A stretch of DNA of 64,000 nt. Source: Kushneria aurantia DSM 21353 (lineage in GTDB: Bacteria > Pseudomonadota > Gammaproteobacteria > Pseudomonadales > Halomonadaceae). The stretch spans positions 161,340 to 225,339 of the forward strand of contig NZ_KB907863.1 in assembly GCF_000382245.1 (NCBI RefSeq). The letters run 5' to 3'. Shown in pieces: positions 1 through 7,326 of this stretch. The translations under genes and the position numbers were made by a program. How positions within the stretch are numbered: position 1 is the stretch's first letter; every line of letters begins with the position of its first letter. The notes under the pieces are model-generated. The model searched no databases and had not been told where the DNA came from. It saw only the letters and a program-made list of their open reading frames with translations.

Positions 1-1537
1 AGGCGTCGATGGCGAGACCGCCGTCCCAGCGCGCCGTACCACTGCTCTGCAGTTGCCCTTCACCGCTGGTAACGGTCAGCGGCGACCAGTTGAAGTGGCG
101 CAGATCGCCGCTTCCCACGAGCGACACACCCAGCGGCTCGACCGTCGGACCCTCGGCATCGGCGGACAGGCTCAGGCGGTAATCGCGTAGCGAGCCCTCG
201 GCATTGAAGGCGAGATTGTCGAGCTGCCACGCCTGCTCGTTGGCGTTCGGTGCGAGCGGCCAGCGCAGCGCAGGGGCATCGAGAGCCAGACGAAACGGCA
301 GGTCCGGGGCCAGCAGATCGCTGTGTGCCTGCAGCCGGGCGGCTATCGGGCCAGTGGCGTCGATATCGAGGCTCAGATCGGCCAGCGAACCGTCGACACC
401 GATAGCAAGACGCTCGCCGGGCAGCGGTGCGCCGCTCAGTTTGGCATTGGCCGACAACGTCAGCGGATAATCACCGCTCAGACCGGCCCGTGCCGTCATC
501 GACAGCTGTGCCAGTGATGAATCCAGCTCGAAGCGGCTGAGTTCAACACTGGACTGGTCGGTTCGGGCCACCAGCGACAGCTGATTGACGGTCAGCGGCG
601 TATCGCCGACCAGGTAGAGATTGCGGACGGTGAACTGCTCGATGTCCACATCCAGCGGCAGCGTTATGTCCGGCAAAACGATGCGTCCCTGATCGTCAAC
701 TTGACCCCAGCTGCCGGCCAGCGGATTGGCCACCGACCGCTCGGCAAAAGCGGCAAGCTGTGCCAGGGGGCCGGGCGCGGCGACCCGTTCAGCGGCAGCC
801 AGCGCTGCGGAATTCAGAGCAAAGGTGGTATCGCCGGCTGCCACCAGCGTTGGCGCGGGCGGTTTCACCACGCTCTCGGCCGCCTCGATAGCGCTTGCGC
901 TGACAATCTCGGCGTTGGCGACACGGCGCGCAGTGCGCGTATCAACCGAACTCGCCAGCGGATCGGCATAGTCGAGCCCCGGCGTGCCCGGCAGTATCAC
1001 GCTGGTGTTGCGAAGCTCGGTAGGCGCGAGATTCAGCTGACTGCCTTCCAGAGTGGCGGCGCTGGTAAAGCGCCCCAACTGCAGCTGCGTGCCGTCGGCC
1101 AGGCGGACATCGATATCGGCCAGCGACAGCTCGCGCAGTTCGATCGGCAGCGGCGTTGCGAGCCGCCCCCCGCCGCTCTGCGTCTCCTGCGGCGCTGGCG
1201 CTGTGCTGTCGCCGGTATCATGCAGGCGCACCCTGACGCCCGCGGCGGCCAGTCGATCGATGCACAGCCGGCCGCCCAGCAGGCAGTCATCGGCCCACTG
1301 CAGCTCGAAGCGCCGCGCCGACAGCGTCAGCGCGGGGGTATTCACTTCCAGACCGTAGAGCGCGAAGTCGTCCAGTGGTGCGCCCTCGACCCGTTCGAAA
1401 GCGAGATAGCCACGGGACTGTGCCTGCTCCAGCAGCCACTGCGTTCCCCAGGGCGACAGCGCCGTGCCCGCCAGAGTGAGCACAAGCCCCAGCAGGGTCA
1501 GGGTCGACCACAGCATCGCACGAAGGATCAGTCTCAA
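1..1537 (-). CDS. tamB: Translocation and assembly module protein TamB, N-terminal part (runs off the window)
   Basis: About 512 codons are visible and the frame stays open to the window edge, so only the N-terminal part of a protein that usually exceeds 1200 residues is present. TamB is an inner-membrane-anchored, periplasm-spanning beta-helical protein that works with TamA in outer-membrane protein assembly or phospholipid transport. I chose a TTG start whose first base overlaps the tamA stop (TTTTGA), giving MRLILRAMLWSTLTLLG, a basic end followed by one hydrophobic anchor (about residues 8-27). The rest is rich in alternating hydrophobic/polar strands (for example ELRELSLADIDVRLADGTQL), typical of the AsmA/TamB beta-taco fold. 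The next in-frame ATG is at codon 8, so the start is uncertain by a few residues. Position directly behind tamA is the strongest evidence. Confidence 0.87.
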   Translation of the reverse strand, partial: MRLILRAMLWSTLTLLGLVLTLAGTALSPWGTQWLLEQAQSRGYLAFERVEGAPLDDFALYGLEVNTPALTLSARRFELQWADDCLLGGRLCIDRLAAAGVRVRLHDTGDSTAPAPQETQSGGGRLATPLPIELRELSLADIDVRLADGTQLQLGRFTSAATLEGSQLNLAPTELRNTSVILPGTPGLDYADPLASSVDTRTARRVANAEIVSASAIEAAESVVKPPAPTLVAAGDTTFALNSAALAAAERVAAPGPLAQLAAFAERSVANPLAGSWGQVDDQGRIVLPDITLPLDVDIEQFTVRNLYLVGDTPLTVNQLSLVARTDQSSVELSRFELDSSLAQLSMTARAGLSGDYPLTLSANAKLSGAPLPGERLAIGVDGSLADLSLDIDATGPIAARLQAHSDLLAPDLPFRLALDAPALRWPLAPNANEQAWQLDNLAFNAEGSLRDYRLSLSADAEGPTVEPLGVSLVGSGDLRHFNWSPLTVTSGEGQLQSSGTARWDGGLAIDA

Positions 1538-3402
1538 AATTCCGGCCCTATCCCGAAGTGAATACGGAAGGCGTTGTCGTCGTCATCCAGGGGATGGGCG
1601 ATATCCAGTCTTATCGGCCCCACCGGCGAGATCCAGCGCACGCCGGCGCCGAAGCTCTTTTTCAGCTCGTCCGGCCCCCAGTCGTTGAAGGCGTTACCGG
1701 CATCGAAAAAGGTCGCCCCCCACCAGTCACCGGTCACACGGCGCTGATACTCGAGCGAGGTAACCAGCAGTTGCTCGCCGCCCAGCAGCTCACCGTCGTC
1801 GTTGCGCGGCGCAATGGTCTCGTAGTCGTAACCACGCACGCTGCGATCACCACCGGTGAAGAAACGCAGCGACGGCGGTATCTGACTGAAGTCATCGGTC
1901 AGGGTTGCCCCCAGAGTAGCGCGGCCGATAAAACGATTGTTGTCGCCCAGGCTTCTGATCCACTGGGTGTCGAGACGTGTGCGCAGAAAGTCGGCATCCG
2001 ACGCCCAGCTTTCACTGGAACCCTCGACGAGAATGTCCTGCCGATCCCCCCACATGGGAAACCGCTGATTGTCGACGCGCGTGCGCGACCAGCTGGCGCC
2101 GGGCACAAAGAGCAGCACCTGGCCGTCCTGATCGGCCTGGGTGAAATCTTCATAGCTGGCGCGCAGGTAAACGTTCTGCGTCCAGTCGTTTTCAAAGCGC
2201 CACTGACGCCCCAGCGATATCGAGCTCTGCTGACTGCGGGTATCGGTGTCGGTCTGATCGGTATTCTCAAGGCCATAGCGCAGGTAGTAGCTGTCACGCC
2301 ATGGGTTTTCCAACGGCAGGCTGTATTCGCCGGAGAAGGTCTGTTCGGGGCCGGAGAGATAAAGCTGATTTTCAAGGCTGTCGCCGCGTTCGCTGAGCCA
2401 GGGAATATGCCAGCTGAACTGGGTACGCGGGCCGACGTCGGTGGCAAAGCCTACCCCCACCTCAAACTGCTGGCGATCGGCGGGTACGACCTCGACGCCG
2501 ATCGGCACCCGGTCGCTGGCCTCCGGCGCTTTCAGTTCGACGCGATCGATAAAGCTTTCGTTACTGCTGCCATCGGGCTCGACCACGCGCGCATCGGGCG
2601 ATGATGCAATACGGCTGGCGCTGGTGTAGCCCTGTCGGTCGAGGCGCGGCCTGAGCCCGACACTGCGGAACCAGCCGCTGTTATTGAGACGCTGGCTGTA
2701 GCGTGCCACATCGGTGGCGAGATAGCGGTCTCCGGGTGCGAAAGGGGCCATGTTGCGCACGCGGTTGTTGCGGATCTGGCTGCCGCTGACAAGGATATCG
2801 CCGAAGCGATAGCGCGTTCCGCTGTCGAATATCAAAGTGATATAGGCGGCGTTTTCCCACGGGCGCACTTCAATGCGGCTGCGCAGATAGCGAGCATCGA
2901 AATAGCCACGCTCCAGCGCCAGTGCGCTGAGACGCGACTTGAGCGCCTCATAGGGAGCGTGACGCAGTCTTTTATCCCGCATCTGCTGCAGGGGGCTATC
3001 GGCTACCGCTTGCTGAAAGGGTTCATCGTCGCTGGCCGCGCCACGCAGCTCGACGGTCAGCGAACGCAGTTTGACCGCCGGGCCATGCTGCACTTGCAAA
3101 CGCACCCTATCGCGACTGACAAGGTCGATCTCGATTTCCGGCGCATAGTAGCCAAAGGGGCGCAGGGCATTTTCGACACGCTCGTGCACCTCGGCACTGT
3201 AGCCCTGCAGCTCGGCGTCGGCAGGAATATCCAGCGGCTCCAGATAGTTGCGAATATTGGTCGCCAGCTCTCCGGTGACGCCGCTGACATCGGCTTCAAT
3301 TGCGTTGGCGACGGGCGCCGCCAATGCACTCGAAACGCCGAGCAGAACAGCGACGGTCAAGCGCTGTGTTACGCGGTAGGTCGCGGCACCACGACACGAC
3401 AT
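1534..3402 (-). CDS. tamA: Autotransporter/outer-membrane assembly protein TamA (Omp85 family)
   Basis: A 622-residue outer-membrane protein of the BamA/TamA family. Starting at the ATG giving MSCRGAATYRVTQRLTVAVL places a clean signal peptide at about residues 1-34 (cleavage after PVANA). Three POTRA-like segments fill about 36-270, and the beta-barrel ends with the Omp85 features RGYD (in GDRSVRGYDYETI) and a C-terminal aromatic residue (GIGPEF). A GTG ten codons upstream (3432) would extend the N-terminus but puts residues in front of the signal sequence; an AAGGAAGAG lies between the two. TamA pairs with TamB, whose gene starts on the tamA stop codon. The gene upstream on the same strand ends about 50 bp before this start, so the three form a likely operon. 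Confidence 0.9.
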   Translation of the reverse strand: MSCRGAATYRVTQRLTVAVLLGVSSALAAPVANAIEADVSGVTGELATNIRNYLEPLDIPADAELQGYSAEVHERVENALRPFGYYAPEIEIDLVSRDRVRLQVQHGPAVKLRSLTVELRGAASDDEPFQQAVADSPLQQMRDKRLRHAPYEALKSRLSALALERGYFDARYLRSRIEVRPWENAAYITLIFDSGTRYRFGDILVSGSQIRNNRVRNMAPFAPGDRYLATDVARYSQRLNNSGWFRSVGLRPRLDRQGYTSASRIASSPDARVVEPDGSSNESFIDRVELKAPEASDRVPIGVEVVPADRQQFEVGVGFATDVGPRTQFSWHIPWLSERGDSLENQLYLSGPEQTFSGEYSLPLENPWRDSYYLRYGLENTDQTDTDTRSQQSSISLGRQWRFENDWTQNVYLRASYEDFTQADQDGQVLLFVPGASWSRTRVDNQRFPMWGDRQDILVEGSSESWASDADFLRTRLDTQWIRSLGDNNRFIGRATLGATLTDDFSQIPPSLRFFTGGDRSVRGYDYETIAPRNDDGELLGGEQLLVTSLEYQRRVTGDWWGATFFDAGNAFNDWGPDELKKSFGAGVRWISPVGPIRLDIAHPLDDDDNAFRIHFGIGPEF

Positions 3403-3452
3403 AGATTCTGCACTCTTCCTTGAATCAAACACTATCCATGGACATTAGAGGC

Positions 3453-4247
3453 TCAGGGATCGAACACACCCCGAAGCGACTCCTGCGCCGCCTGCAACTG
3501 AATCTGGTTCTGCCGCAGCCGATCGACGCCCGCATCCAGGGCGTCGAGCCGCTCGCCAATGCGCTCCAGCTGTGCATCTCGACCGCTGACGCTGTCGTCG
3601 AGCGACCCAAGGCTTGTGGAAAGCTGCTGCTGCCGTTGGCTCAGTGCTGACAGTTGTTCATCCAGCCGCTGCGACAACGCCTGCTGGCGCTGTTCGATCT
3701 GCGCCAGTTGCGACTGCGTCTGCTCTACTCGCTCATCAGTACCACTACGCAGCGTGGCGATAGCACTGTCGAGCGCCTCGAGCGACTGCTGCATGGCCTG
3801 CTGCGTCTGCTGCAGGGTGGCGTCCGCCTCACCGAGACGGTCGAGACGCGACGGCAGGTCCACCTGCGGCTGTGCAGCCAACTGCTCCTGCTGCTGATCG
3901 AGGCGCTGACGCTGGCTCTCGATCAGTTCCTGCTGCTCCATCTGCGCCTGGCGCAGGCTGTCGAGCATGGCGCTGACGTTGGAGGAGAGCTCGTCGCGAC
4001 GATCAACCCCCTCCTCGGCCATATTGGCGACTTCGTCAAAACGCGCCAGCAGCGCCTGCCGCTGCTGGTAGTAGGTCACTCCCAGAGCTGTCAGCGCTAC
4101 AAGCAGCAGTAGCACCAGCATATAAAGCGGCCACAGCCTGACCCGGCGGACGCCGGCGGTGCGGCGGTGAGCGCCGGCGGTCGATACGGATCGCGATGCG
4201 TGACGCTCGGCGCGCAGAATCGGTTCGTCCTGGTCCTTGTCCGGCAT
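3453..4247 (-). CDS. Membrane-anchored coiled-coil protein of unknown function
   Basis: A 264-residue protein I do not recognise as a named family. It has a basic, hydrophilic N-terminal cytoplasmic tail (about 1-37), one transmembrane helix (about 39-59, WPLYMLVLLLLVALTALGV), and then almost entirely Gln/Glu/Leu/Arg heptad sequence (about 62-255) predicted to form a long periplasmic coiled coil. The end is QESLRGVFDP. The chosen ATG (MPDKDQDEP) has GGAAG seven bases upstream; an in-frame start 17 codons upstream lacks one. It lies just upstream of tamA and tamB on the same strand, suggesting a role tied to envelope assembly, but that is inference from position only. It resembles in layout, not in sequence, other single-pass coiled-coil envelope proteins. 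Confidence 0.7.
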   Translation of the reverse strand: MPDKDQDEPILRAERHASRSVSTAGAHRRTAGVRRVRLWPLYMLVLLLLVALTALGVTYYQQRQALLARFDEVANMAEEGVDRRDELSSNVSAMLDSLRQAQMEQQELIESQRQRLDQQQEQLAAQPQVDLPSRLDRLGEADATLQQTQQAMQQSLEALDSAIATLRSGTDERVEQTQSQLAQIEQRQQALSQRLDEQLSALSQRQQQLSTSLGSLDDSVSGRDAQLERIGERLDALDAGVDRLRQNQIQLQAAQESLRGVFDP

Positions 4248-4448
4248 GAGGCTTCCAGTCAGATTGGCCACCGATGGCATTTCGGCGCATTCGAACAAAT
4301 TCGGTTTGGATAGTGCATGCTACGATGGTTCGCTATCGAAAAGCCAGAGCCGTTACGCTGTCAAAGGGTAAAGGCACGGCGCGAACCAGCGGGCCTTTCG
4401 ACACAGGTTTTTATGGCCGCCCCGACGTGACACTGCATGGAAAGTGGT

Positions 4449-5093
4449 ATGCCTCTTGAACTCCCCTCGCTGCCCTATGGCTATGACGCACTGTCGCCGG
4501 TGATCTCTGCACAAAGCCTTGGAAATCATCATCGAAATGTCCATGGCGGTTATATCGAGCGCCTGAAGGCACTCGGCCATGGCGATTTCTCGCTGGAAAG
4601 CATTATGCTGACAATGCGCGGTGAAGCGCACGCCTGCGCCTGCCAGGCGTGGAATCACACCTTTTTATGGCAGTGTTTGACGCCCTGGTATCAGACACCG
4701 GCGGAAGGCCCACTGCAGCACGCCGTAATGGCGCGCTGGGGAAGTTTCGAGGCGCTTTTGCAGGCGCTGCACGCCAGCGCCGGCGCCCACTTCATGGGAG
4801 GCTGGACATGGCTGGTGGTAACCGCCGCCGGACGGCTCGATATTATCAACGCCGCCGATGCCGGCTCCCCTCTGCTGGGCGGCTATCATCCGCTGCTGGC
4901 CATCGATATGTGGGAGCACGCCTGGGTGCCGGATTACCTCGGTGACCGCCACAAGTATCTCGACCGCCTCGAGACGATCATCAACTGGCCCTTTGTCGAG
5001 CAGTGTTTTGACGACGCTGTGGCAGCCGCACAAGGGCGCCGCCCGCTGGTGCAGTTCGCTACCCTGCCGCAAACGGGCATGCCACCCCGTTGA
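4449..5093 (+). CDS. sodB: Superoxide dismutase, Fe-type, divergent
   Basis: A 214-residue Fe/Mn-family superoxide dismutase that disproportionates superoxide in the cytoplasm. All four metal ligands are visible: His26 (SLGNHHRN), His69 (QAWNHTFLW), Asp152 and His156 (DMWEHAW). Gln65 just before WNH and the AGSPL segment mark the iron type rather than the manganese type; Tyr34 is also kept. Unusually, the two residues that hydrogen-bond across the dimer interface in FeSOD (E. coli His30 and Tyr163) are both valine here (V30 and V159), and the C-terminus carries about 20 extra residues. The start MPLELPSLPYG aligns exactly with E. coli SodB and follows GGAAAG; an ATG four codons upstream is less likely. 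Monocistronic, divergent from the coiled-coil gene and convergent with the ugd-like gene. Confidence 0.9.
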   Translation: MPLELPSLPYGYDALSPVISAQSLGNHHRNVHGGYIERLKALGHGDFSLESIMLTMRGEAHACACQAWNHTFLWQCLTPWYQTPAEGPLQHAVMARWGSFEALLQALHASAGAHFMGGWTWLVVTAAGRLDIINAADAGSPLLGGYHPLLAIDMWEHAWVPDYLGDRHKYLDRLETIINWPFVEQCFDDAVAAAQGRRPLVQFATLPQTGMPPR

Positions 5094-5119: not shown

Positions 5120-6433
5120 TCAGAAGTCGTTATCGCCCAGCGTGCCCGGCATGGGTTCGCTGCGACGCCCCACGCCGCGATAGGTGAAGCCCTGCTCGGC
5201 CACGTAGGACGGGTCGTAGATGTTACGCCCGTCGAGCAGCAGCGGGGTTTTCATCAGCGTCGAGAGACGCCGCCAGTCAGGGTTCCAGTACTCCTTCCAT
5301 TCGGTCACCAGTAGTAGCGCATCGACCTCATCGCAGGCCTTTTCGGGCGACTCGGCAAGCGTCAGCAGCGGATGATCGCCGTAGTAGCGCGCGATAGCCG
5401 GCAGCGCGGCCGGGTCATGAAGATGAACATGAACGCCCTGAGCCCAGAGCGCATCCAGCAGACGCAGTATCGGCGCATGGGCGATACGCGGGGTTCCGGG
5501 TTTAAAGGCAGCCCCCCAGATCGCCACACGACGGCCGCCAAGATTGCCGTGGAAGTGCTGCCACAGCTTGCGAAACAGCACCTCCTGCTGCTGTGTGTTG
5601 ATGTCGATGACCCGCTCCAGCAGGCCGTCGCGCTGCCCCTCACGGGCGCGCACACTGGAAAGCCGGTAGAGATTGCGCGCGAAGCTGGGACCGCCGAAGC
5701 CACTACCCGGATACAGATAGTCGCGCCCGATACGGCGGTCGGCGCCCATCGCCTGACGCACGAGATCGATATCGACATCCAGGCTGTCAGCCAGGCCGGC
5801 CAGTTCGTTCATGTAGCTGACGCGTGTTGCCAGCATGCCGATCACCGCCAGTTTGGTGAGCTCGGCAGCGCGGCGCGGCATCAGGCGCAGATTGTTCTCG
5901 CGGCGATTGAAAGCGCGCAGCAGCTCGGCAATATGGCGCGTGGCCCAGTCGTTTTCACTACCCAGTATCCAGCTGTCGGGGCGGGTGAAAGTGGTCAGCG
6001 CCCGCCCTTCTTCCAGCACTTCAGGCAACGCCACCGCGACCTGATGCTCGCGGCGCAGCAACTGCTCCAGCTCTTCGGTGTGGCCAATGGGAAAGGTGCT
6101 GTTGTTGACCAGCACAAAATCATGGGGCTCCTTGCCCAGCGTCTGCTCGACCCAGCGATCGGCATCCTGTCGCTGATCGGAGGATACCGCGAGCCAGTAA
6201 ACGCTGGCGCTGGGCAGAGAACGGGCGCTGTCGCAAAGCGTCAGCGAGCCGCTTTCGATGCTGTTGCAGAGCTGGTGGTAAAGCCCGGGCTCGTTGACGA
6301 TCCAATCGGTCTCGACCAGCTTTTCCCAGGGCTGAGCCGGATGCGGCCACCACCAGACATGGTGGCCGACCATCGACAGCGCAGCCGCCGCAGTGGCCGC
6401 GCTCAGTTCACTGCCATGTACCACTACCTGCAT
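5120..6433 (-). CDS. UDP-glucose/GDP-mannose dehydrogenase family protein, probably catalytically inactive
   Basis: A full-length (437 residue) homologue of UDP-glucose 6-dehydrogenase. The C-terminal UDP-binding domain is well kept (VAIWGAAFKPGT, TEWKEYWNPDW, DGRNIYDPSYV), as is the helix around AELTKLAVIG and YPGSGFGG. However, the catalytic cysteine in GFGGSCFPKD is serine here (Ser250, GFGGPSFARN), the following catalytic Asp is Asn254, the family Asn208 is Ile198, the N-terminal dinucleotide motif GxGxxG reads GSELSA, and the acidic residue that ends beta-2 is replaced in VWWWPHP. These are missense changes in an intact frame, so the gene is conserved as a protein but is unlikely to oxidise UDP-glucose. 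It starts two bases after the galU stop and is surely co-transcribed with it. A UDP-sugar-binding or regulatory role is possible but unproven. Confidence 0.85.
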   Translation of the reverse strand: MQVVVHGSELSAATAAAALSMVGHHVWWWPHPAQPWEKLVETDWIVNEPGLYHQLCNSIESGSLTLCDSARSLPSASVYWLAVSSDQRQDADRWVEQTLGKEPHDFVLVNNSTFPIGHTEELEQLLRREHQVAVALPEVLEEGRALTTFTRPDSWILGSENDWATRHIAELLRAFNRRENNLRLMPRRAAELTKLAVIGMLATRVSYMNELAGLADSLDVDIDLVRQAMGADRRIGRDYLYPGSGFGGPSFARNLYRLSSVRAREGQRDGLLERVIDINTQQQEVLFRKLWQHFHGNLGGRRVAIWGAAFKPGTPRIAHAPILRLLDALWAQGVHVHLHDPAALPAIARYYGDHPLLTLAESPEKACDEVDALLLVTEWKEYWNPDWRRLSTLMKTPLLLDGRNIYDPSYVAEQGFTYRGVGRRSEPMPGTLGDNDF

Positions 6434-6435
6434 TG

Positions 6436-7326
6436 TCAGGCCTCACTCTGGTAACGCTTGAGTAGCTCGCGGAAACCCTCGCCATATTTGGGGTGGCGAC
6501 GCGCCAGCGCGATCGTTGCTTCCAGATAGCCGAGCTGGTGACCGCAGTCGAAGGTTTCACCCTTCATTCGATAGGCCGCTACCTCACCGCTGCCGCGCAG
6601 CGTGTCGATGGCATCGGTCAGTTGAATCTCGTTACCGGCACCGGGCGTTGTTTCGGCCAGAATCGGGAAGATGGCGCCGGGCAGCGTATAGCGACCGATG
6701 ACGGCAAGCGTCGACGGCTCGGTGCCGGGGTCGGGCTTTTCCACCATACCGGTAATTTTTGCACTGCCGCCGGCTTCGGGCGTTTCCCCTTCGAGCGCCA
6801 CAATGCCGTACTTGTAGGCGACCTCGGCAGGCACGTCCTGCACCATGATCTGCGCCGCACCGGTGCTGTCGTGCGCCTTGATCATGCCGGCCAGATCGTT
6901 GTGCTCGAGCCCCGCACAGTCGACCAGTACGTCCGGCAGCAAAACGGCGAACGGCTCGTTGTCGCCAATGATCGGACGCGCGCAAAGAATGGCATGACCC
7001 AGGCCCAGCGCCTGCGGCTGGCGTACCGAGATGATCGACACATCGTCGGGAATGATGCTGCGCAGCTCATTAAGCAGTTCGGTCTTGCCCTTGGCCTCGA
7101 GCTGACTCTCCAGTTCAAAATGCTTGTCGAAATGATTTTCGATCGCTGCCTTGGTGGAGTGCGTGACAAGGACGATCTCCTTGATGCCTGCTTCGACGGC
7201 CTCCTGCACGACATACTGGATCACCGGCTTGTCGACGATGGTGATCATCTCCTTGGGAATGGCCTTGGAGGCGGGAAGGCAGCGGGTACCAAAACCTGCA
7301 ACGGGAAGCACTGCTTTACGGATCAT
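6436..7326 (-). CDS. galU: UTP-glucose-1-phosphate uridylyltransferase
   Basis: A 296-residue GalU that makes UDP-glucose from UTP and glucose-1-phosphate for cell-surface glycans and, here, for trehalose synthesis by OtsA. The N-terminal nucleotide-binding signature is complete (VLPVAGFGTRCLPASKAIPK, PKEM), followed by DKPVIQYVVQEAVEAGI, the uridine-binding VLLPDVLVD segment, and the substrate-binding GMVEKPDPG and YTLPGAIFPIL motifs. Length matches bacterial GalU (about 280-300). The start MIRKAVLPVAG is standard. The ugd-like pseudoenzyme follows with a two-base gap, the usual galU-ugd pairing of gammaproteobacteria. The promoter should lie in the 300-bp divergent gap shared with mtaD. Confidence 0.96.
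   Translation of the reverse strand: MIRKAVLPVAGFGTRCLPASKAIPKEMITIVDKPVIQYVVQEAVEAGIKEIVLVTHSTKAAIENHFDKHFELESQLEAKGKTELLNELRSIIPDDVSIISVRQPQALGLGHAILCARPIIGDNEPFAVLLPDVLVDCAGLEHNDLAGMIKAHDSTGAAQIMVQDVPAEVAYKYGIVALEGETPEAGGSAKITGMVEKPDPGTEPSTLAVIGRYTLPGAIFPILAETTPGAGNEIQLTDAIDTLRGSGEVAAYRMKGETFDCGHQLGYLEATIALARRHPKYGEGFRELLKRYQSEA

Follow-up and report, generated by a model that had tools for sequence, protein, structure and literature searches.

What would keep an intact gene for a UDP-glucose dehydrogenase (UGD) in a bacterial genome when its product lacks the residues needed for catalysis? The question is raised by a 64,000-nucleotide stretch of the genome of Kushneria aurantia DSM 21353 (contig NZ_KB907863.1, positions 161,340 to 225,339; hereafter the window), in which a gene that we call pUGD, for pseudo-UGD, occupies positions 5120..6433 on the minus strand and encodes a UGD-fold protein of 437 amino acids with neither the catalytic Cys nor the motif for binding nicotinamide adenine dinucleotide (NAD). 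An initial annotation had described the product as a dead UGD that is preserved by selection next to galU, and by the sequence criteria applied here the window protein is indeed dead as a UGD. As to what it does instead, we lean towards the reading that it is a UDP-sugar-binding pseudoenzyme, which would sense or regulate the Pgi/Pgm/GalU node, with both the binding and the partner being conjectural.

The reading frame starts with ATG and continues as a single open frame with 0 internal stops, so that the gene is full length and intact, as had been stated. Its departures from active UGDs lie at the sites on which the dehydrogenase reaction depends (coordinates are in the window, on the minus strand). 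In alignment with active UGDs, GSELSA (residues 7-12; 6398..6415) takes the place of the GxGxxG motif, Pro30 (6344..6346) replaces the Asp that ends the second strand of the NAD domain, and Ile198 (5840..5842) replaces the Asn of active UGDs (Asn224 in the human enzyme, UGDH). The loop that wraps UDP-glucose, GYGGSCFPKD, reads GFGGPSFARN (residues 245-254; 5672..5701), with Ser250 (5684..5686) in place of the catalytic Cys and Asn254 (5672..5674) in place of the catalytic Asp (human Asp280). GSELSA, Ile198, Ser250 and Asn254, each of which had been picked out in the initial annotation, occupy the alignment positions that hold the Gly motif, Asn, Cys and Asp in the best solved UGD and in active homologues from two genomes of the genus. 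The catalytic Cys, the GxGxxG motif with the strand-2 Asp, and the active-site Asn and Asp are accordingly all missing from the window protein, and the residues taken to define the UDP-sugar pocket (Lys, cross-dimer Arg, FK and DGR) are all present. These are Lys194 (5852..5854) and Arg234 (5732..5734), taken from their alignment positions as the equivalents of human Lys220 and Arg260, Lys311 (5501..5503) in the FKP motif of the UDP-binding domain, and the invariant motif DGRN of the same domain (residues 401-404, including Arg403; 5222..5233). A study of human UGDH describes Cys276 and Asp280 as acting in catalysis, Lys220 as stabilizing the transition state, and Arg260 as reaching across the dimer to contact the glucose moiety (PMC3184952).

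Domain models reflect the same division. The window protein scores 27.2 bits against a cut-off of 27.0 for the NAD-binding domain (PF03721), which it barely passes, 76.4 against 25.4 for the central domain (PF00984), and 89.5 against 30.0 for the C-terminal UDP-binding domain (PF03720), the conservation of which had been noted from the sequence and is borne out by this score. It also passes the NCBIfam model "nucleotide sugar dehydrogenase" (203.8 bits, cut-off 189.8), and an annotation pipeline that uses this model would therefore call pUGD an enzyme. An AlphaFold2 model of the protein has a mean predicted local distance difference test score of 89.2 and a predicted template modelling (TM) score of 0.82, and its best matches in the PDB are the UGD BceC (TM ~0.87 by query, 32% identity) and a Porphyromonas gingivalis UGD with bound UDP-glucuronate (TM ~0.87). 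By profile and predicted fold, the window protein is assigned to the UDP-glucose/GDP-mannose dehydrogenase superfamily, and the model indicates that the UGD fold is kept across its whole length.

The loss of catalytic residues extends beyond the genus. Residue conservation was compared between 50 hand-chosen, full-length, representative pUGDs (19 from Halomonadaceae and 31 from elsewhere; truncated or duplicate ones were left out) and 53 comparison UGDs, among which a Cys-less protein, L200, was kept; the class-1 UGD control covers only one locus out of eight (n = 1). At position 250 the pUGDs carry N (17), S (13), H (7), G (6), A (3), Y (2), T (1) or Q (1) and never Cys (0/50), and Cys is found in 52/53 comparison UGDs, the exception being L200. 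Gly at motif position 9 is present in one of the 50 pUGDs versus 52/53 comparison UGDs, and Asp at position 30 in none of the 50 versus 52/53. The pocket residues behave in the opposite way: Arg234, Phe246, Lys311 and Arg403 occur in 50/50 pUGDs and Lys194 in 49/50 (Arg in L021), and they stay invariant while the proteins diverge to ~35% identity. The prediction that orthologues would share the Ser/Asn/Ile set did not hold, as Asn198 and Asp254 each survive in 26/50 homologues. Judged from this alignment, what the pUGDs have in common is the loss of the Cys and of the NAD motif, and Ile198 and Asn254 are details of lineage.

The same contrast is seen across the alignment as a whole. The comparison set has 126 columns with a conservation of 95% or higher. 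Of these, 51 persist in at least 90% of pUGDs (kept columns) and 36 in fewer than 20% (lost columns). The lost columns include GxGYVG, Asp30, VGTP and the DG loop, as well as three residues of NPEFLKEG (N, E, K), four of SCFPK (S, C, P, K) and three of DDMR (D, D, R). Losses are concentrated in the N-terminal, NAD-binding half, in which 12 columns are kept and 22 lost, compared with 39 kept and 14 lost in the rest of the protein (Fisher p 0.0007). At 11 positions, moreover, 90% or more of pUGDs agree on a residue unlike that of the comparison majority: L10, A16, N110, L122, Y239, L240, F246, R288, W291, Q332 and W383. Trp291 (5561..5563), a candidate residue of a new interface, is present in 50/50 pUGDs and in 0/53 comparison UGDs.

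The phylogenetic tree contains one branch that parts 44 pUGDs from 30 other UGDs with a Shimodaira-Hasegawa-like approximate likelihood ratio (SH-aLRT) support of 100, in a quick search run without bootstrap, in which the positions of the long rows L162, L158 and L063 are uncertain, eleven rows carry a flag for unusual composition, and the 30 "active" rows include L200. On this evidence the pUGDs look like an old pseudoenzyme family of single origin. The protein L200 (L200:5092-6411; genome G592, order-level family f38) is a second Cys-less UGD, apparently the result of an independent loss. It falls within the active clade on a longer branch, and its loop reads GYGGSFFPND, with Phe for Cys and Asn for Lys; it has GTNYTG at the Gly motif and Gln for Glu in NPEFL, and its NAD domain still scores 185.6 bits.

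Within the genus, pUGD is under purifying selection about as strong as that on galU. By the NG86 method, the median ratio of nonsynonymous to synonymous substitution rates (dN/dS) was 0.052 for pUGD, with a maximum of 0.174, and 0.044 for galU, with a maximum of 0.090, in each case over 44/45 pairs, with pairs at dS of 3 or more or undefined being dropped. For the eight pUGD pairs with the lowest dS, the ratio ranged from 0.015 to 0.038, and the YN00 medians were 0.034 for pUGD (23/45 pairs) and 0.038 for galU (35/45 pairs). The low dN/dS that had been anticipated for a preserved gene is thus observed.

The orthologue was present in 10/10 genomes of the genus searched, with 69-82% identity in the nine others. 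Throughout the family of the window genome, Halomonadaceae, orthologues exist, whole or in pieces, in 269/275 genomes, a count judged mostly by score. When the family was searched as a whole, 273/275 genomes had a match at E 1e-30, and in 255 of them the best match was below 1e-100; for these 255, identity as pUGD was taken from the score, and the motif was read in fetched ones only. A closer look at the remaining 20 revealed pUGD, whole or in pieces, in 14, including G266, accepted by score only, and G091, with a contig-end piece that ends before residue 250. Closer looks detected no pUGD in six of the 275 genomes, namely G014, G126, G127 and G274, which are 99-100% complete, G118 (77%) and G264 (71%). 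Among these genomes, G127 has two full-length galU genes and G126 has two partial matches to galU. Copies that are not whole occur in G120, G222 and G266, in which the gene is in pieces, in G251, where its final part is in a different frame, and in G052, in which the last quarter was not found beside the rest. Broken copies occur in a few genomes of the family, mostly, but not all, poor assemblies. In G120 and G222 the adjoining galU is also split, which suggests a sequencing error there; the copies in G251 and G052 are not explained in this way. The expectation that orthologues would be free of decay thus held within the genus, with open frames in 10/10 genomes, and less strictly in the family.

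Cys-less homologues were also found outside Halomonadaceae, in the order-level groups f43, f37, f36 and f26 and the class-level groups f200, f148 and f99. This adds seven family groups of the class to Halomonadaceae, for a total of eight. Another is present in a metagenome-assembled genome of Methylococcaceae (L063). The class-wide count should be read as a minimum, since many active UGDs score in the same range.

The linkage of pUGD to genes of UDP-glucose synthesis is conserved. In the window, galU, encoding UTP--glucose-1-phosphate uridylyltransferase, is located at 6436..7326 on the same strand, directly upstream of pUGD (TIGR01099, 331.4 bits against a cut-off of 326.8), and the two genes are separated by 2 bases (6434-6435). 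The two-base spacing, which had been reported for the window, recurs in the ten genus loci; elsewhere the spacing ranges from overlap to several hundred bases. In 10/10 genus loci and 18/22 named Halomonadaceae loci, pUGD comes directly after a galU gene of the same orientation; the named loci are from Salinicola, Chromohalobacter, Onishia, Litchfieldella, Billgrantia, Halomonas and Vreelandella, all of which are Halomonadaceae. The emphasis on galU as the neighbor proves too narrow: outside Halomonadaceae, pgi adjoins pUGD on the same strand in 34/35 distinct loci examined with wide flanks (36 with L164, which is taken as a repeat of L064, Marinobacterium marinum, and would place this species in f37). 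The sole exception, L063, has a phosphohexomutase gene adjoining pUGD. In these 35 loci, galU is upstream on the same strand in 24 and on the opposite strand in 4, and none was seen in 7. The gene order is galU-pgi-pUGD in f37, f99, f148 and f200, and galU-pUGD-pgi, often along with a phosphohexomutase gene, in f43 and f36. Within Halomonadaceae, pgi adjoins pUGD in G134, G135 and G138 (g13) and in five of the six g15 genomes, as read from the fetched stretch. The products of galU, pgi and the phosphohexomutase gene together make UDP-glucose from fructose 6-phosphate.

Among 14 class-2 UGD loci from other families of the order, including the Cys-less L200, pgi lies within ~5 kb of none and galU within ~5 kb of one only (L196, in the order ugd then galU). 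Conversely, no UGD gene was found near pgi in 16 loci from 15 of 19 genomes searched, two of the 15 being G014 and G274, family members in which pUGD was not detected; in the same 16 loci, galU and pgm are within ~5 kb in 6 and pgm alone in 1. Six loci from other families of the order (L284-L286, L289, L290 and L299) have a phosphohexomutase gene and galU near pgi on the opposite strand, and a UGD gene was not found there. An origin of pUGD in place, from an active ugd, is not shown by these loci.

How might such a protein act? The retained UDP-sugar pocket fits the suggestion of UDP-glucose sensing made in the initial annotation, and control of GalU, also proposed there, becomes one option beside control of Pgi or of the UDP-glucose node as a whole. 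In the mechanism that we envisage, pUGD would bind UDP-glucose, or the related UDP-glucuronate, without the ability to oxidize either; binding would alter its conformation or oligomeric state; and the protein, as a product sensor or feedback subunit, would adjust the activity of a node enzyme (GalU or Pgi), perhaps through a contact surface that active UGDs lack and that may include Trp291, Arg288, Gln332 and Trp383. Since the cross-dimer Arg is retained, it is plausible that ligand binding is coupled across the dimer, as proposed for the human enzyme. A more specific version, which we regard as possible rather than probable, is that the pUGD family, which extends over several families of Gammaproteobacteria, constitutes the UDP-glucose receptor of the Pgi-Pgm-GalU node. 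It would then detect the product with the former substrate pocket and, through Pgi or GalU, set how much hexose phosphate flows into envelope sugars.

Several observations weigh against a regulatory role of this kind. The protein is not essential everywhere, as four family genomes of 99-100% completeness have no detected copy, and two further genomes that are 99-100% complete, G251 and G052, carry a pUGD that is not whole. In 4/22 named Halomonadaceae loci (L051, L052, L056 and L058), galU is not within the 3.5 kb fetched upstream; pUGD stays there while galU is absent from that interval, and the pair is therefore separable. Gene linkage can also last for reasons of expression alone, and the AlphaFold2 model is of a single chain, built from 45 sequences. 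Finally, Lys194, and often Glu142 and Asp138, remain, and these would also suit a different reaction.

The last point leads to one of the two strongest rivals, a new reaction in the same pocket, the other being a ligand-independent scaffold. With the fold unchanged, the protein could act on a UDP-hexose, needing neither NAD nor the Cys, and might be an epimerase, lyase or hydrolase, for example, that uses Lys194 and nearby acids. The near invariance of Lys194 in a retained pocket, along with Glu142 in 40/50 pUGDs and Asp or Glu at position 138 in 45/50, is compatible with this proposal; however, the former Cys position is free to vary among eight residue types, and the 11 pUGD-specific positions offer no obvious new nucleophile, although N110 and Y239 are polar. 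We consider new chemistry unlikely, if the foremost of the alternatives. A ligand-independent scaffold, which would join GalU and Pgi (or other enzymes of envelope sugars) and in which the pocket would be merely structural, is slightly less likely still. The tight order with galU and pgi, including an overlap by a few bases of the pgi and pUGD match spans (tblastn) in L152, L158 and L164, would suit a scaffold, and the invariance of Trp291 and other pUGD-specific residues suggests a new surface, but the conservation of the pocket at ~35% identity goes beyond what a pure scaffold seems to need.

A further rival is regulation of an active UGD, with pUGD mixing with active subunits and tuning them. 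The window genome has an active class-1 ugd (E. coli Ugd type) with intact Cys and GxGxxG at G000:C34 (L002). A second class-1 ugd survives there only as fragments, with a stop, at G000:C34:20656-21087, ~15 kb from the intact one. A class-1 ugd match was present in 37/37 Halomonadaceae genomes tested, chosen for a single match in the family-wide pUGD search, with only broken pieces in G039. UGDs form dimers or hexamers with cross-subunit Arg contacts, according to the study cited above (PMC3184952), and that Arg is invariant in pUGDs. These facts favor mixed oligomers, but in G521, G747 and G909 pUGD was the sole match to an active class-2 UGD query at E 1e-10, in a search covering 42 genomes, all but one from other families. 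The one family member, G039, likewise gave no match other than pUGD to this query (E 1e-10), and its only other UGD is the broken one. Moreover, the active enzyme of the window genome is of the distant class-1 type, with 25% identity over 247 residues. Conversely, an active ugd whose motifs are intact lies upstream of galU-pUGD-pgi, in one cluster, in G612, G489 and G380. Given the genomes in which pUGD was the sole match and those with both, pUGD is neither a simple substitute for active UGD nor everywhere dependent on it, and a regulatory partnership with active UGD seems improbable.

Residual dehydrogenase activity, with Ser250 as the nucleophile or with the first oxidation only (alcohol to aldehyde), is more improbable again. 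Ser is a conservative change from Cys, and the human Cys276Ser enzyme is described as accumulating a covalent adduct (PMC3184952); against this, the NAD motif is lost (Glu at Gly9, Ala at Gly12, Pro at Asp30, with VGTP and the DG loop gone), and relatives carry Gly, Ala, Tyr or His at position 250. Decay of a ugd on its way out, to which the non-whole copies in G120, G222, G266, G251 and G052 might point, can be dismissed as a general reading in view of the median dN/dS of ~0.05, the open frames in the genus and the depth of a clade common to several families, even if single broken copies exist.

A sensing or regulatory pseudoenzyme at the UDP-glucose node thus remains our preferred reading, and its place among known systems can be considered. 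Class-2 UGDs (TuaD/RkpK/BceC type; PDB 2y0e and 3gg2) resemble pUGD in having the three-domain fold over the full length (TM ~0.87), the UDP-binding domain, the cross-dimer Arg, Lys194, Lys311 and DGRN. Compared with them, pUGD lacks the catalytic Cys, GxGxxG, Asp30 and the DDMR loop, its NAD loop is shortened, and the invariant Trp291 is its own. The class-1 enzyme L002 shares with pUGD the superfamily and the residues of the UDP-sugar pocket; unlike pUGD, it keeps GTGYVG, Cys, Lys and Asp. It is 30% identical to the active class-2 UGD L012, to which four pUGDs are nearer (37-42%).

GalF is a non-catalytic relative of a sugar-nucleotide enzyme, devoid of activity, that has been proposed to regulate GalU. 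NCBIfam model TIGR01105 names this GalU paralogue a "GalU regulator". By analogy, and because of its retained pocket and gene order, pUGD may work like GalF as a regulatory pseudoenzyme; the folds are unrelated, GalF being a relative of nucleotidyltransferases and pUGD of dehydrogenases. UgtP of Bacillus subtilis and OpgH of E. coli are UDP-glucose sensors of cell size, glycosyltransferases that act on FtsZ. They resemble the role proposed for pUGD in that proteins of UDP-glucose metabolism serve as its sensors, and no sequence relation is claimed.

The gene cluster itself has a counterpart in Acinetobacter, whose polysaccharide clusters have the order galU-ugd-pgi-gne-pgm, with ugd treated as an enzyme (PMC3726653). 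This module matches the order of the f43 pUGD loci, namely galU, a UGD-family gene and pgi, with a phosphohexomutase gene in 7/9 f43 loci. The comparison is one of gene order only; in f43 the gene at that position encodes the pseudoenzyme, and three f43 genomes add an active ugd upstream of galU.

Searches of open-licence PMC literature, read at the level of titles and abstract openings, found no description of a bacterial UGD pseudoenzyme. The present one, spread throughout a family, tied to an operon and with a retained ligand pocket, is broader than an observation on a single genome. Should pUGD sense UDP-glucose, it would provide a feedback element for an important point at which envelope synthesis branches off from central metabolism. 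It would also clearly exemplify how a metabolic enzyme can become a conserved, non-enzymatic partner that is still encoded in the gene cluster of its own pathway. There is also a practical side. As the protein passes the NCBIfam cut-off, pathway reconstructions of Halomonas-type chassis could count the non-enzyme pUGD as a source of UDP-glucuronate. A UDP-glucose 6-dehydrogenase step is drawn in a paper from 2026 that treats Halomonas bluephagenesis as a hyaluronate chassis (PMC13296553).

The surroundings of pUGD include other genes of note. In the four loci in which galU was not within 3.5 kb (L051, L052, L056 and L058), pUGD lies between a ubiG-like gene (named by eye) and a small open reading frame (ORF), which is followed by a TamA-like gene. 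The small ORF in these four Halomonas/Vreelandella loci is of membrane type and follows pUGD within ~10 bases, and after the TamA-like gene comes a further ORF that, judged by eye, might belong to tamB. The gene may thus have a link to envelope assembly. In the window, an ORF of the Fe/Mn superoxide dismutase (SOD) family at 4437-5093 on the plus strand is convergent with pUGD, and behind it a similar small ORF and an Omp85/TamA gene occupy 1534-4298. The idea that the SOD-like ORF is a second pseudoenzyme, having lost the first metal-ligand His, is not supported by alignment: the first helix retains an aligned pair of His residues, and the stretch that follows is altered. A weaker-scoring SOD-like gene is found at the same place beside pUGD in Salinicola (L041).

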